A stretch of 64,000 nt of DNA, taken from contig JAENYQ010000008.1 of NCBI GenBank assembly GCA_016841675.1, positions 1 to 64,000 of the forward strand. The letters run 5' to 3'. The DNA comes from Desulfotomaculum sp. (GTDB lineage Bacteria; Bacillota; Desulfotomaculia; Desulfotomaculales; Desulfallaceae). The notes beneath the pieces were generated by a model. It worked only from the letters and a program-made list of their open reading frames with translations. It had not been told where the DNA came from and made no database searches. Below are positions 2,578 to 62,722 of this stretch, piece after piece; position 1 is the stretch's first letter; each line of letters starts with the position of its first letter. A program made the translations under genes and the position numbers.

Positions 2578-3426
2578 ATGGAAATACTACAGTATGACTT
2601 CATGCTTCGGGCTCTTGCGGTAGGGGTGATAATCGGCGTGGTTTGCCCGCTGGTGGGACTTTTTATCACCCTGCGCCGCATGTCTATGATATCTGATGCC
2701 CTTTCGCATGTCTGCTTATCCGGGGTGGCAGCAGGACTTTTTATCGGGGTGCAGCCTATTTTGTCGGCGTCAGCCTTTGCTGTGGGGGGCGCACTTTTAA
2801 TTGAAGTGCTGCGTGAAAAATATCAGCACTATGCCGAATTGTCCATTGCCATCATCCTTTCTACCGGGGTGGCAGTAGCGGCCATCCTCATCGGCCTGGG
2901 TAACGGGCTGGGCGGTGGATTTATGAGTTATCTGTTTGGCAGTATTGTGCTCCTGACTACCAAAGACGTTGTTATAATAGCAACTATCGGTACTCCGGTG
3001 CTGCTGCTTACGCTGCTCTTTACCAAAGAAATGTTTAATATTACCTTCGACGAAGAGGCGGCCCGGGCCTCGGGACTGCCAGTAAAACTAATTAACATAG
3101 GTTTTATAGTTTTAACCGCGCTGACCATAGCGGTGGCCATGCGTATCGTTGGTATACTATTGGTTTCTTCGCTGATGATTCTGCCCGTTGCTACAGCCAT
3201 GCAAACGGCGAAAAGTTTTACCGGTACGCTATTTTGTTCAGTCCTCGTTGGGGAATTGGCAGTAATCACGGGCCTGGTGTTATCTTTTTATCTGAACCTG
3301 CCGCCCGGAGGGACAATAGTAATTACCTTGGTGCTGGTACTAATCACTACCTTGGTTTTTTCCGCTCGCCGGGCCGGCCAAGCCGGTTACACCGCTCGGG
3401 CCAATAGAAGCGAATTGGGCGGTTAG
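2578..3426 (+). CDS. znuB: Zinc/manganese-type ABC transporter permease (ABC-3 family)
   Basis: A 282-residue membrane protein with about eight hydrophobic segments. The family segments LITLRRMSMISDALSHV near residues 30-45 and FDEEAARASGLP in the large cytoplasmic loop are characteristic of ABC-3 metal permeases. It starts four bases after the ATPase stop, behind GGAGGG, so the two are translated as one unit and should form the transporter. A GAG-rich leader belonging to the next operon starts about 80 bases downstream, so the metal-transport unit probably ends here. Confidence 0.87.
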   Translation: MEILQYDFMLRALAVGVIIGVVCPLVGLFITLRRMSMISDALSHVCLSGVAAGLFIGVQPILSASAFAVGGALLIEVLREKYQHYAELSIAIILSTGVAVAAILIGLGNGLGGGFMSYLFGSIVLLTTKDVVIIATIGTPVLLLTLLFTKEMFNITFDEEAARASGLPVKLINIGFIVLTALTIAVAMRIVGILLVSSLMILPVATAMQTAKSFTGTLFCSVLVGELAVITGLVLSFYLNLPPGGTIVITLVLVLITTLVFSARRAGQAGYTARANRSELGG

Positions 3427-3507
3427 TAATCTGGTGCGCTGGTGAGCAGGCGGCTATTTAGAGTTGACAGTTAAGTTTGATTATTATAACATGTTGCTAA
3501 ACATTAT

Positions 3508-3578
3508 AAGCTTAGCCGGTAATGAGATTGAGCAGAGCGGAGAGATATTTGAGACGACTCGGAGACCGATGGGGTGAG
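3508..3578 (+). promoter_or_regulatory. GAG/TAG-triplet leader, possible TRAP-binding attenuator
   Basis: NAG triplets begin at 3508, 3513, 3524, 3530, 3535, 3540, 3551, 3562 and 3576. Most steps are 5 or 6 bases, or 11 (two steps with one degenerate repeat); the last is 14. TRAP (MtrB) binds up to 11 G/UAG triplets spaced by 2-3 bases and controls trp and folate-operon pabA/trpG genes in bacilli. An intrinsic terminator follows immediately and pabA starts 70 bases later. A competing antiterminator was not clearly found, so this is a candidate only. Confidence 0.4.
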
Positions 3579-3605
3579 AACCAGCATTTTTGTGCTGGTT
3601 TTTTT
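3579..3605 (+). terminator. Intrinsic terminator in the pabA leader
   Basis: Perfect 8-base arms AACCAGCA/TGCTGGTT around a six-base loop, followed by seven T. It lies after the GAG triplets and before pabA, as an attenuator would. It could also simply end the upstream metal-transporter transcript. Confidence 0.8.
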
Positions 3606-3648
3606 GATGCCGGATACAGGATGAAATATCTACTTAAAAGGGGCGAAA

Positions 3649-4242
3649 GTGTTGATACTGTTAATCGACAACTACGATTCTTTCGTATACAATTTGTACC
3701 AGTACTTATCGGAGCAGGGTAAAGATGTCCTGGTTTACCGCAACAACCGGATTTCTGTGCTGGAGGCAGAAGAAATGGCCCCGGAATGCATTGTTCTTTC
3801 GCCCGGGCCGTGTACACCGGATGAGGCGGGCATTACGCTGGATTTTGTCAGGCAGTTGGCCGGTAAAATACCTATCTTTGGTGTTTGTCTTGGTCATCAG
3901 GCCATTGGACAGGCCCTGGGCGGCCGGGTGGTGCGCGCCGGTCGGCCCATGCACGGCAAGACTGACCGGGTTTTTCACAACGGCAGGGGCATTTTTGCCG
4001 GGCTGCCCAATCCCATGCCTGCGGCGCGCTATCATTCCCTGGTTATCGAACGGGAAAGTATCCCGGGTTGCTTGGAAGTAACAGCCAGCACTGCGGATGG
4101 GGAAATTATGGGCGTACGGCATCGGCAGCTAGCGGTGGAAGGGGTTCAATTTCACCCCGAGTCCATTTTAACCACCTGGGGTAAAAAACTCTTGGCCAAT
4201 TACCTGCGCCTGATCGGGGAGGGCATGCGTAATGTTGTTTAA
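3649..4242 (+). CDS. pabA: Aminodeoxychorismate/anthranilate synthase glutamine amidotransferase subunit
   Basis: A 197-residue class I glutamine amidotransferase that supplies ammonia from glutamine to the chorismate-using partner. Visible features are IDNYDSFVYN at the start, SPGPCTPDEAG, the nucleophile in GVCLGHQAIGQ (Cys80) and the HPES dyad (His169, Glu171). The GTG at 3649 follows AAAGGGG at good spacing. It overlaps the PabB gene by 11 bases, which argues for a folate role; such subunits are often shared with tryptophan synthesis, so a dual PabA/TrpG role is possible. No other trp gene is in the window. The preceding leader suggests transcriptional attenuation. Confidence 0.9.
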   Translation: MLILLIDNYDSFVYNLYQYLSEQGKDVLVYRNNRISVLEAEEMAPECIVLSPGPCTPDEAGITLDFVRQLAGKIPIFGVCLGHQAIGQALGGRVVRAGRPMHGKTDRVFHNGRGIFAGLPNPMPAARYHSLVIERESIPGCLEVTASTADGEIMGVRHRQLAVEGVQFHPESILTTWGKKLLANYLRLIGEGMRNVV

Positions 4243-5668
4243 ACTGCCTTTATATCAGGATATCCCTGCTCCCGCAGGCGGTGCGCCGGCAATCCTTGAA
4301 CGGCTAAAGGCACTGCCGTGCCCGTTTCTGCTGGATACAGGTATGCTTGTGCCAGGCCTGGGACATCACTCATTCGTGGGGGCCGACCCTTTCCTGGTGC
4401 TCAAGGCGCGGGGACAGCAGATTACGGTGTCCGAGGGGGGTAAAACCATTGTATATAATGGGGATCCCATAGTCGAACTGGGCAAACTGCTGGATCGCTA
4501 TAAATTGCCTGCTGCACCGGGTCCATATCCTTTTAACGGCGGGGGGGTCGGTTATTTTAGCTATGACCTGGGCCGTAGTTTTGAAGTATTGCCATCGTTG
4601 GCTGTCGACGACCTGAAAACACCGGACCTGTGCCTGGGCTTTTATGATGTTGTAGTGGCTGTTGATGTATTGTCCGGTGAAGTCACGGTAATTTCCACTG
4701 GGCTGCCGGAACGAGGCCCCGCCGCTGTAGTCAGGGCGCAGGAAAGACTGGTTGCTGTGGTGGAGCTTTTAGCTGCTCAGCCGATATCCGGCGCTGGGGC
4801 GGGTGTTCCAGTTCGTGATGGTAAAGTCGGTGAGCTGGTTTCCAACTTCACCCCGGACGCCTATCGCGAAGCGGTCCGGAGGGCCGTGGAGTACATTTAC
4901 GCCGGTGACATATTTCAGGTTAATCTTTCTCAGCGGTTTAGTACGCCGCAAGTTGTGGACACCTGGTCATTGTACACCAGGTTGAGGCAAATCAACCCCG
5001 CCCCCTTTGCCGCATTTTTGTCTTACGACGATCTAGAAGTGATTAGTGTATCACCGGAACGGTATATGAAACTGGATGGGAGCAGGGTGGAAACTTGCCC
5101 CATCAAGGGAACCCGGCCCCGGGGTCGCACGCCGGAGGAAGACATGCTATTACGGCAGGAACTGCTGGACAGCGAAAAGGACCGGGCTGAATTAATGATG
5201 ATTGTGGACCTGGAACGCAACGACCTGGGCCGGGTATGTGAGGTGGGTACGGTTAAGGTGCCGGAACTTTACCGACTGGAAGAGTATGCCACGGTATTTC
5301 ACCTGGTTTCCACGGTTGAAGGCAAGTTGTACCCGGAAAAAGACATTACGGATTTGCTGGCTGCATCTTTCCCCGGCGGTTCCATAACTGGGGCACCCAA
5401 AATCCGGGCCATGGAGATTATCGAGGAAATGGAACCAGTACGCCGGGGGATATATACCGGGTCCATCGGGTATATCGGTTTCGACGGCCGGGCCGACCTA
5501 AACATTGTTATCCGCACTATTTTAGCTGCTCAGGGAAACTTTTACTTCCAGGTGGGTGGTGGTATTACCGCCGAATCGGATCCACACCAGGAATACGTGG
5601 AGACGCTGGACAAAGCCAGGGCACTGGTCAGGGCGCTGGGGTTGGAAAAAAGTGGACATGGTTTTTAA
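4232..5668 (+). CDS. pabB: Aminodeoxychorismate synthase component I
   Basis: A 478-residue chorismate-binding enzyme that aminates chorismate to 4-amino-4-deoxychorismate for p-aminobenzoate and folate. The C-terminal catalytic domain shows GDIFQVNLSQRF, ISVSPERY, DSEKDRAELMMIVDLERNDLG in part, and FPGGSITGAPK. Lys292 in the PIKGT segment is the residue that separates PabB from anthranilate synthase TrpE, which has Ala there (PIAGT). This favours PabB directly from sequence. It overlaps pabA upstream and is followed by pabC, giving a complete p-aminobenzoate branch. Length is normal for the family. Confidence 0.92.
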   Translation: MLFKLPLYQDIPAPAGGAPAILERLKALPCPFLLDTGMLVPGLGHHSFVGADPFLVLKARGQQITVSEGGKTIVYNGDPIVELGKLLDRYKLPAAPGPYPFNGGGVGYFSYDLGRSFEVLPSLAVDDLKTPDLCLGFYDVVVAVDVLSGEVTVISTGLPERGPAAVVRAQERLVAVVELLAAQPISGAGAGVPVRDGKVGELVSNFTPDAYREAVRRAVEYIYAGDIFQVNLSQRFSTPQVVDTWSLYTRLRQINPAPFAAFLSYDDLEVISVSPERYMKLDGSRVETCPIKGTRPRGRTPEEDMLLRQELLDSEKDRAELMMIVDLERNDLGRVCEVGTVKVPELYRLEEYATVFHLVSTVEGKLYPEKDITDLLAASFPGGSITGAPKIRAMEIIEEMEPVRRGIYTGSIGYIGFDGRADLNIVIRTILAAQGNFYFQVGGGITAESDPHQEYVETLDKARALVRALGLEKSGHGF

Positions 5669-5699: not shown

Positions 5700-5781
5700 G
5701 TAGGGGCGCCCCCCGCGGGTGCCCGGTTCACCCATACCCCCGCATCATTAATTTGGGCACCCGCAAGGGTTGCCCCTATGA
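5700..5781. repeat. GGGGCACCC-type inverted repeat between pabB and pabC
   Basis: The ends are inverted: GTAGGGGC at the left and GCCCCTAT at the right, with GCGGGTGCCC and GGGCACCCGC arms inside. Related shorter copies lie at 14273-14298, 22387-22414 and 45402-45419. It falls inside the pab operon and would form a long hairpin in the transcript. Confidence 0.7.
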
Positions 5782-5818
5782 CAACTATTGGGAATATTGT
5801 TGGCAGGGAGGCGGTAGT

Positions 5819-6643
5819 TTGCCCCATTATTACCTTTGCAAAGGTGAAATAAAACCCGTCGAGCAGTTAACGTTATCCCCCCGGGATCAGGGACTGCTGT
5901 ACGGTCTTTCCCTGTTTGAGACCATGCTGGTAAAGCAAGGCCGGGTAATTATGTTGCAGCAGCATCTACAAAGGTTAACCGGTTCTGCCGCTTCAATAGG
6001 TATAACCATAGGTGCAGATAGGGATTTGTTGGCAGCAAATAGCATTGATGCGGTGGAACGTACCGGTGCAGCCGATGGGGTATTACGGCTTACTGTTACA
6101 GCCGGGCCCGCGGACAGCGGGATGGGATTAATCCTTTTCTCGGTGCAGGAAGGAACTCCCTACCTGCCCGGGCGATATGCAAAGGGTTTTTCACTGCTGA
6201 CTCTTTGTTTTCCCCGCAATGAAAAGTCCCCCCTGATCCGTCATAAGACTGCCAATTATATGGAAAATCTGTTGGGCCGCCGGGAAGCATTGCGGCTTGG
6301 TTATGACGAGGGGCTGTTTCTGAATTCACAGGGTAACGTGGCCGAAGGCACTGTAAGCAATATCTTTGCTGTGCAAAAAGGCGAACTGTTTACCCCGCCG
6401 CCCGAGGCCGGCCTGCTACCGGGCACAGTCCGACAGTTGGTTATTGAACTTGCGCCATTAATGGGCTATCAATGCCGGGAAGAGGATATAACTACCAATG
6501 ACATTAAAACGGCCGATGAGTGTTTTTTGACAAACTCACTGATGGGAATCATGCCGGCCACCAGTCTGGACGGTAAGGACATAGGAAGTGGCCTGCCGGG
6601 CCGGGTAACTTTGGATCTGATGAAATTGTACCCGCCCGAATAA
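5819..6643 (+). CDS. pabC: Aminodeoxychorismate lyase, class IV PLP fold
   Basis: A 274-residue class IV aminotransferase-fold enzyme that releases pyruvate from aminodeoxychorismate to give p-aminobenzoate. The TTG at 5819 is chosen because GGGAGGCGG lies just upstream; the open frame extends back to 5753 into the inverted repeat without a ribosome site. Family segments are LSPRDQGLLYGLSLFET, the PLP lysine in RHKTANYMEN, GNVAEGTVSNIF and LLPGTVRQLV. It follows pabB after the hairpin repeat. Substrate is assigned from the operon; branched-chain or D-amino acid transaminases share the fold. Confidence 0.88.
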   Translation: MPHYYLCKGEIKPVEQLTLSPRDQGLLYGLSLFETMLVKQGRVIMLQQHLQRLTGSAASIGITIGADRDLLAANSIDAVERTGAADGVLRLTVTAGPADSGMGLILFSVQEGTPYLPGRYAKGFSLLTLCFPRNEKSPLIRHKTANYMENLLGRREALRLGYDEGLFLNSQGNVAEGTVSNIFAVQKGELFTPPPEAGLLPGTVRQLVIELAPLMGYQCREEDITTNDIKTADECFLTNSLMGIMPATSLDGKDIGSGLPGRVTLDLMKLYPPE

Positions 6644-30292: not shown

Positions 30293-31584
30293 TGAAGTTA
30301 ATTATTCAAAATGGGCGGCTTTTGGACCCGGTGGCCGGCCGGGATCAGAACGCAGACCTTTATGTTAATAATGGATTGATTTGTGCGCCATTCCAGCCCG
30401 ACAGCACCACAAGCATCATCGATGCCGGGGGCAAACTAGTGGCGCCGGGCCTGGTGGACATGCATGTACATCTGCGGGAACCAGGGTTTGAGTACAAGGA
30501 GACCATTGTCACCGGTACTGCGGCAGCAGCCCGGGGTGGGTTTACCGGTGTGGCCTGCATGCCCAACACCGACCCTGTAACCGATAACCGGGTGACGGTG
30601 GAGTATATTAATAAACGGGCTCAAGAGGACGGACTGGTGAAGGTCTATCCGGTAGGCGCCATCACCCGTGGCAGTCGGGGTCAGGAACTGGCTGAACTGG
30701 CGGACATGCGGGAAGCCGGCGCGGCGGCCTTCTCAGACGACGGCCAACCGGTGACGGACGCCGGCTTGATGCGTCGGGCCATGCTGTACTGCAGCATGCT
30801 GGGCGCGGCCATCATCTCCCATTGCGAAGATAAAAGTTTGGCCGGTGGCGGGGTGATGCACGAGGGTGCTTACTCCACAATACTAGGTTTAAAGGGGATC
30901 CCTGCTTCAGCCGAGGAGGCAATGGTGGCCCGGGATATTATTCTGGCCGGGGAAACCGGCTGTCCGCTGCATCTAGCCCATATAAGTACTACGGGCTCGG
31001 TGTCCCTGGTTCGCGAGGCCAAAAAGCGTGGTGTAAGGGTTACGGCGGAAGTGACGCCACACCACTTTACCCTGACGGACCGGGCGGTAGGGGACTTTAA
31101 CACTAACGCCAAAGTAAACCCGCCGCTGCGCGGCGAGGCCGACGTACAGGCAGTACGCCAGGGATTGGCCGATGGCACCATTGATGCCATAGCCACCGAC
31201 CACGCGCCTCATTCCTTTGATGAGAAAAACGTGGAATTCGACCTGGCCCCCTTCGGGTTGGTGGGTCTGGAGACAGCGGTGGGACTGGTGTGGACTGAAC
31301 TGGTGCTAACCGGTATTTTGACCCCGCTGCAGGCGGTGCAAAAGCTCTCCTGCAACCCGGCCCGCATCCTGGGCGTTGCGGGTGGCACCTTGACCGAGGG
31401 GGCGTCGGCGGACATTACCATAATTGACCCCCTGCTTGAGGAAACGGTAAACCCGGCTGATTTTGCCGGTAAAAGCAGAAACACCCCCTTCACGGGCCGC
31501 CGGCTTAAAGGTTTGCCGGTCCTCACCATAGTAGCAGGGGAGATTAAGTACAGGAGACAGGAGTCAGTAGTCAGTAGTCAGTAG
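30292..31584 (+). CDS. pyrC: Dihydroorotase
   Basis: A 430-residue class I dihydroorotase. Metal ligands appear in DMHVHLREPG, ISHCED, LAHIST and ATDHAPH. ATG 30292 shares a base with the pyrB stop (TGATG), and GGGGAGG lies upstream. The last residues (RRQESVVSSQ) and the TAG stop are encoded by a heptamer repeat array, so the C-terminus has been rewritten by repeat insertion; catalytic residues lie well before this point. Confidence 0.94.
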   Translation: MKLIIQNGRLLDPVAGRDQNADLYVNNGLICAPFQPDSTTSIIDAGGKLVAPGLVDMHVHLREPGFEYKETIVTGTAAAARGGFTGVACMPNTDPVTDNRVTVEYINKRAQEDGLVKVYPVGAITRGSRGQELAELADMREAGAAAFSDDGQPVTDAGLMRRAMLYCSMLGAAIISHCEDKSLAGGGVMHEGAYSTILGLKGIPASAEEAMVARDIILAGETGCPLHLAHISTTGSVSLVREAKKRGVRVTAEVTPHHFTLTDRAVGDFNTNAKVNPPLRGEADVQAVRQGLADGTIDAIATDHAPHSFDEKNVEFDLAPFGLVGLETAVGLVWTELVLTGILTPLQAVQKLSCNPARILGVAGGTLTEGASADITIIDPLLEETVNPADFAGKSRNTPFTGRRLKGLPVLTIVAGEIKYRRQESVVSSQ

Positions 31585-31604
31585 TCAGTAGTCAGGAGTC
31601 AGAA
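31563..31604 (+). repeat. GTCAGTA heptamer array, six units
   Basis: Four exact GTCAGTA units are followed by GTCAGGA and GTCAGAA. The array supplies the pyrC stop codon. TACTGAC-orientation units recur at 36792-36840 on the other side of carAB. Confidence 0.9.
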
Positions 31605-62410: not shown

Positions 62411-62722
62411 ATCCGTTATCATAAAATTTAAGAATATTTTAATAATTTATAAACTAAATATTAAAGTTTTAAGCTTAATATGATGTGGTGTTAAAGCTAT
62501 ATGAGGTTGGGTTTAAGCTAAACATACATATATTTTAGTCATGGTGCTGTATTATAAAAGTATCTTAAAAGCAAACAATTTAATCAATCAATTATTCTCC
62601 GAGCCCGGATACCTTCATTGTATTATCGTAATGGTGGTTTTGGGACGCCAGGGTGTGGCGGGAAACTGCCATGCCTCCCATTGTGGAAAGGGGATTATTT
62701 TATTATACGAGGAGGAATATTG
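62411..62722. other. Leader region of the aldehyde oxidoreductase gene
   Basis: AT-rich to about 62600, then GC-richer. A 60-codon frame at 62541 lacks a ribosome site and family features. TGGCGGGAAACTGCC (62656) recalls a -24/-12 promoter but has nine, not ten, bases between GG and GC. GAGGAGGAATATTG is the ribosome site of the next gene. Confidence 0.4.

Follow-up and report, generated by a model that had tools for sequence, protein, structure and literature searches.

Upstream of the pabABC (folate) operon, near the beginning of the 64,000-nucleotide stretch of DNA analysed here (the window), lies a leader that we read, with a probability of about two in three, as a transcription attenuator in which a TRAP site is laid over a conserved RNA switch. 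The first-pass annotation had suggested a TRAP-type attenuator before a pabA operon, and this is supported by a gene for TRAP (mtrB) in the same genome, a conserved triplet period and a terminator. That reading was incomplete, as some of the conservation belongs to a distinct RNA core, which is found in triplet-free form too. TRAP binding, the direction of control and the use of one core pairing (S2) as antiterminator are parts of the model that we infer from sequence.

All features of the leader lie on the forward strand. A promoter-like site, TTGACA-17-TAACAT, occupies positions 3464-3492 and matches the consensus at 10 of 12 bases; from its sequence, transcription would start near 3498-3502. 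The site is weak on its own, since the promoter scan found 2 sites against 0.8 expected, and a similar arrangement was recognised by eye in the family leaders. It ends 16 nt ahead of the run of NAG triplets that forms the candidate TRAP-binding site (3508-3578), with AAG at 3508, TAG at 3513 and GAG at 3524, 3530, 3535, 3540, 3551, 3562 and 3576; CAG at 3533 and GAG at 3542 are overlapping extra triplets. The start-to-start steps are 5, 11, 6, 5, 5, 11, 11 and 14. The nine NAG triplets had been described as 5-6 or 11 bases apart, which holds for seven of the eight steps and fails for the last, a step of 14. Two to three of the gaps fit skipped repeats, and the seven GAG, one UAG and one AAG agree with a TRAP leader (approximately 11 (G/U)AG with spacers of 2-3 nt), though with fewer than 11 perfect repeats. 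The 71 bases of the run end, as annotated, at an intrinsic terminator before pabA (3579-3605; arms 3579-3587 and 3592-3600, U-run 3599-3605), on which positions and folding agree. Its hairpin (3579-3600) folds at -12.3 kcal/mol and is also clear by eye; a simple terminator scan reported none in the leader region. From the terminator to the GTG start of pabA at 3649 there are 43 nt, which contain no GAG or UAG, only isolated CAG or AAG.

This leader holds the top-scoring (G/U)AG chain of the window, at 5.5 compared to 3 for the next separate place and 4.5 for the best chain in 30 dinucleotide-shuffled windows. When all NAG were allowed, a chain at 31524-31593, in a short tandem repeat, outscored the leader (7.0 vs 6.5). 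The segment at 31524-31600 consists of a short tandem repeat (CAGTAGT...) imitating a NAG run, followed by GTCATTCTGAGCGCAGCGAAGAATCT; similar sequence occurs near mtrB in locus L001 (about 185-212) and may be a dispersed repeat. The sole Rfam match of the window was a Moco (molybdenum/tungsten cofactor) riboswitch, RF01055, at 62585-62709 (58.8 bits).

The gene directly downstream, pabA (3649-4242), encodes the glutamine amidotransferase of aminodeoxychorismate synthase and matched TIGR00566 at 256.4 bits (cut-off 121.05) as well as PF00117. It is followed by pabB (4232-5668), component I of the same enzyme, which matched TIGR00553 at 356.9 bits (cut-off 328.4), with trpE_most below its cut-off. 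The third gene (5753-6643), a pabC-like class IV aminotransferase or aminodeoxychorismate lyase, matched PF01063 and no NCBIfam equivalog above cut-off; its true start is uncertain. Elsewhere in the genome, at G000:C146, there is a separate trpE with a TrpG/PabA-type amidotransferase gene behind it. Across 89 loci, which include repeats of one place or near-identical ones, the next gene after the core was pabA-like in 57, pabB-like in 27 and an amidotransferase slightly nearer TrpG in 4 (in two of which pabB comes next), and one locus ran to a contig end. In L251 (G252) a DAHP-synthase-like translation was noticed by eye between pabA and pabB. In L248 (G318) an intact core lacks its terminator and passes into pabB-like coding sequence, as though a deletion had joined leader and gene.

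We examined the triplet period in 57 distinct leaders (61 less 4 triplet-free ones), which together hold 446 (G/U)AG. Pairs at lag 5 numbered 162, compared to 31.4 ± 5.4 in dinucleotide shuffles, and random pieces of the window gave lag-5 counts of 7 at most. Lag 6 was not raised (24 vs 30.3 in shuffles), while lags 10 and 11 gave 119 and 81 pairs, the latter partly reflecting a fixed GAG-11-GAG of the core. Many single leaders are unconvincing alone, as the per-leader chain test reached p < 0.05 in only 37 of 61. Loss of the triplets in close relatives had been named as an outcome that would speak against TRAP; instead, the 5-nt period is retained while the spacer bases drift.

The triplets overlap a near-invariant core, GACUCG..GGGGUGAGNACC, which continues into the terminator and is found before pab genes in many Bacillota families. 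Searches were performed with model R1, built from 11 family leaders, and model R2, built from 58 distinct rows, the building rows matching by construction. With R1, 39 of the 113 class genomes contained the element at E <= 5.8e-7 (G009, G021, G035, G041 and G089 set aside by inspection) and, in a phylum-wide sample of 398, 30 genomes gave a match, of which 28 passed inspection (G009 and G457 set aside). R2 matched 36 of the 398, 18 of the 20 genomes in G419's class and 6 of the 97 in G409's; among the 80 named loci (80 of 591 relatives), one match was obtained, in the Peptococcaceae MAG L042. The MAFFT alignment of the element, A3, retained 58 distinct rows of 62. Loci L178-L186, L209 and L212 were left out as bare terminators or unrelated on inspection, as was L159, where the contig ends although the element there is real. 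Rfam at gathering score gave no match to the core among its cis-regulatory families (THF, ZMP/ZTP, T-box, trpB motif and others), including none in eight loci of family f46, and permissive Rfam scans of the leaders gave sub-threshold matches only. The core GACUCG..GGGGUGAG was not present in trpG loci L098-L108, one copy per genome being found. The predicted transcript start of the family leaders L112-L122 (about ACAAYUGAAAGC) is similar across several families and also before the triplet-free cores of family f137. In L085 (G003), two similar tandem segments of roughly 90 nt were seen by eye between terminator and pabA. Genome G005 carries a similar long inserted repeat in the terminator-pabA gap of L086 and in the trpE leader of L127, where it seems to split the triplet run.

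Besides the terminator, two pairings were recognised in the core. S1 joins CUCG at 3558-3561 (A3 columns 7-10), located between the triplets at 3551 and 3562, to UGAG at 3575-3578 (columns 24-27), whose GAG is the last triplet. S2, a candidate antiterminator pairing, joins UGG at 3570-3572 (columns 19-21) to 3581-3583, inside the 5' arm of the terminator. RNAalifold on A3, an alignment of 58 rows not fitted to structure, returned S1 (7-10:24-27) and the terminator (28-34:44-50) unprompted. The S1 pair 8:26 is UA in 49 rows and GC in 9, with none of the 58 unpaired, and the GC rows belong to two separate groups, G067 of the window's own class and family f46. The terminator pair 28:50 appears as AU, GC, GU, CG and UA, with 2 of 58 rows unpaired, and slid controls for covariation were all lower. 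S2 (19-21:30-32) contains two invariant GC pairs, and its pair 19:32 is UA in 35 rows, CG in 8, UG in 3 and unpaired in 12. Where column 32 is G, its terminator partner stays U (GU, 11 rows). Among 75 distinct elements, column 19 is C in 8 of 11 with G at column 32 compared to 11 of 64 elsewhere (Fisher p 0.0005, with counts that ignore relatedness). Pair 18:33 carries no covariation signal, 1286 of 5000 permutations reaching the observed value. The invariant bases of the 58 rows include G5, A6, G20 and G21.

S2 differs between the two forms of the element. Of the 60 triplet-rich elements, pair 19:32 is present in 48, 18:33 in 41 and 17:34 in 13, whereas all 13 triplet-poor elements form the five pairs of an extended S2 (17-21:30-34), with 17:34 as AU, GU or GC. 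The energy of S2 is about -1.2 kcal/mol in the window's own leader and -3.9 to -7.9 in the seven triplet-poor elements computed. Judged by these comparisons, the triplet-poor form gives S2 good support, and in the triplet-rich form the pairing is weak. Across the alignment, covariation supports S1 and the terminator, and more weakly the putative pseudoknot pairing S2. Together S1 and S2 would make a candidate H-type pseudoknot that excludes the terminator. The last triplets fall within this S1/S2 core, so that the candidate TRAP site would overlap a structure that may compete with the terminator; covariation for it is strong in S1 and moderate in S2, and S2 is weak in the window's own genome.

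An antiterminator overlapping the GAG run had been anticipated by the first-pass annotation, and a simple nested one was not found in the window's own leader by folding. Several other structures were considered and rejected. A local GGU:ACC hairpin (columns 22-24:29-31) was considered by eye as an antiterminator and discarded, the GGGA variants having A at column 23. The helix CUCG:UGGG from the first RNAalifold run showed no compensating change, and 9 of the 58 rows cannot form its pair 8:21. Pairing of ACCAGC with the 5' end (which reads GCCGGU in the window's own leader) as a long-range antiterminator was inconsistent by eye and by folding among 11 leaders, that of G005 being folded in shortened form. 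A k-turn around S1 was dropped, as any base can occupy column 28, which changes together with its terminator partner. A leader peptide with Trp codons was likewise rejected; the one TGG of the frame in the window's own leader is absent by eye in G013 and G005.

The core also occurs in genomes in which the leader lacks a (G/U)AG run although mtrB is present (G181, G375, G419, G439 and G460 of family f46; G272 and G367 of family f33). In the closed genome G409, it stands directly behind a promoter-like sequence, with no triplets and no mtrB match, and the related genomes G581-G584 share the same triplet-free form. The triplet-poor form accounts for 13 of the 75 distinct elements, and in all 13 the strands of S1 are CGC[G/U] and GCG. 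In the 60 triplet-rich elements, CUCG is combined with GAG in 52 and CGCG with GCG in 8. The compensating change in S1 therefore also switches GCG against the TRAP triplet GAG. In the triplet-free f46 leaders L206, L208, L210, L227 and L228, a CC-rich and then a GGG segment lie approximately 20 nt before the core and possibly form a further small hairpin.

A genome without mtrB would likewise have counted against TRAP, and the gene is present, at G000:C80:7384-7584 (E 4.7e-41, above the Pfam cut-off), its product being clearly related to the solved TRAP chains in the PDB. Within the family, mtrB was found in 13 of 16 genomes, and the element in 11 of 16, with one copy each, always before pabA and always together with mtrB. 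Desulfotruncus alcoholivorax is among the 11 element-bearing genomes, since its named record, L058, matches trpG locus L101 of G006 at 100% identity across 3558 bases. In the phylum sample of 398, mtrB was present in 35 of the 36 genomes matched by R2 compared to 165 of 362 others, although these 36 are related genomes and so not independent cases. Co-occurrence in the class (38 of 39 element-bearing genomes compared to 67 of 74 others) says little because mtrB is nearly universal there (105 of 113). In G027 triplets are present and mtrB was not found in a draft of 99% completeness. Termination control by TRAP appears native to this family, since triplet runs also precede its trp genes and were followed by terminators in the three trp operons examined by eye. 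By shuffling, trpG leaders reached p <= 0.01 in 11 of 11 family genomes and trpE leaders p <= 0.02 in 10 of 11 (L132 gave p 0.08, and in L133 the assigned trpE position is doubtful). Between trpE and trpG of the window's own genome lies another TRAP-like run, equipped with a separate promoter-like sequence and terminator (L123, 3935-3987).

We propose the following mechanism. Transcription of the leader would begin from the promoter-like site at 3464-3492. With tryptophan in ample supply, TRAP carrying the amino acid would wrap the NAG run, and the bound ring should block S1 and S2, since two triplets flank the 5' strand of S1 and another closes its 3' strand. With S1 and S2 blocked, the terminator would form and pabABC would be off at high tryptophan. 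When TRAP is absent, the S1/S2 pseudoknot would delay the terminator and permit readthrough. S2 alone should not hold the terminator open, given -1.2 compared to -12.3 kcal/mol. An antiterminator may not be strictly needed, since B. subtilis TRAP can cause termination when the attenuator hairpin is mutated or deleted, according to PMC3913778. As S2 alone is weak in the window's own genome and the core persists without triplets, a second signal probably stabilises the S1/S2 core; the stabilising partner, when transcription continues, could be a ligand or a protein.

The core itself can be read in two ways. It is possible, and we put it forward tentatively, that the core (S1, S2 and terminator) is an undescribed, compact pseudoknot switch of pab operons that itself senses a folate-branch signal, onto which TRAP has been grafted in most lineages. 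The exchange of CGC:GCG for CUC:GAG in S1 would keep the helix and create a triplet, and one RNA would read both the folate-branch signal and tryptophan. As would be expected of a new riboswitch, the covarying structure is predicted also in leaders without a TRAP site; ligand binding is putative, and other proteins may act on it instead. Alternatively, and to us rather doubtfully, the leader is a TRAP attenuator without a second input, its core being an antiterminator conserved for dual pairing and triplets. The presence of mtrB in all but one of the 36 core-bearing genomes of the phylum sample and the GAG triplet in the 3' strand of S1 in 52 of 60 triplet-rich elements agree with this, whereas the retention of the core in triplet-poor forms, including G409 without an mtrB match, and the very weak S2 of the window's own leader do not. 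The invariant G5, A6, G20 and G21 also seem to exceed the apparent needs of pairing and triplets.

Two further explanations dispense with termination control of pabA. That TRAP acts on pabA translation as in Bacillus, with an incidental terminator, is very improbable here. In Bacillus, TRAP is known to control trpG at translation, going by titles that PMC4347634 cites, and triplets reach the start codon in three Bacillales loci (L004, L026 and L027). In the window, however, the interval between terminator and pabA start is free of GAG and UAG, from which control is probably on termination, unlike in Bacillus. The gap between terminator and gene also varies, with inserts of at least 100 nt in L085, L086 and L092, and the terminator is maintained by compensating changes. 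Termination control of a pab operon had been annotated as a variation on known TRAP regulation, and the conserved terminator and the lack of GAG or UAG up to the pabA start fit it. It is less credible still that the terminator belongs to the upstream metal-transport genes, with a purine-rich spacer before it and no regulation of pabA. A permease gene of that group does end at 3426 on the same strand, but a promoter-like site lies between it and the triplets, and the element travels with pabA or pabB in 88 of 89 loci, the last being cut by a contig end. Nor would a 5-nt period and covariation be expected of a spacer.

What is known of TRAP control comes mostly from Bacillus, in which the ribosome-binding site of the folate pabA copy is the point of regulation. 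The reference list of PMC4347634 holds 1995 and 1997 titles on TRAP control of B. subtilis trpG/pabA, and that of PMC10888875 one from 1997 concerning TRAP and the transcript levels of the folate operon. Among the matches listed from the open-licence PMC literature, no paper described a TRAP-controlled terminator before pabA, or the core, and text finds in PMC2965389, PMC2864571, PMC8632094 and PMC11109978 yielded no pabA or pabB in the passages returned. Both attenuation by TRAP and its control of the folate operon in Bacillus are already known; neither a TRAP site at a pab terminator nor the core was found in print in these searches. If the proposed reading is true, termination lets a tryptophan-sensing protein control the synthesis of a folate precursor across a broad range of Bacillota, D. 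alcoholivorax among them. As a candidate for a new RNA switch, the core with its triplet-free form is open to direct tests, and the compensating base changes offer a rare look at how a protein-binding site can be superimposed on RNA structure.

Pseudoknot riboswitches such as preQ1-I place a very short H-type pseudoknot beside a terminator. The pab core would resemble them in this layout and has no Rfam match. The trpB motif (RF04312), a riboswitch candidate, likewise has a two-hairpin layout with a terminator (PMC11109978), but it is associated with other genes, and its match to one triplet-free leader was sub-threshold (16.7 bits, gathering 59, E 3.1). The trp TRAP leaders of the same family (L123-L133), in the same genomes, share the promoter-like sequence, triplet run and terminator. 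Unlike the pab leader, the trpG leader of L123 contains GAGAUGAGU, complementary by eye to ACUCA of the terminator arm. The B. subtilis trp leader, as described in PMC3913778, has (G/U)AG repeats with short spacers that overlap a strand of the terminator-competing structure, and the pab leader is similar in its (G/U)AG repeats upstream of a terminator, in the mtrB of its genome and possibly in this overlap. It differs in standing before pabABC and not trp, in that its competing structure appears to be a sequence-conserved pseudoknot core, and in its strong terminator with a clean U-run, the B. subtilis attenuator being described there as weak. With trpG/pabA of the B. subtilis folate operon, going by the titles cited above, the leader shares the target gene and presumably the protein; the Bacillus site overlaps the ribosome-binding site, whereas the site described here stops approximately 70 nt short of the start codon, where it leads into the terminator.
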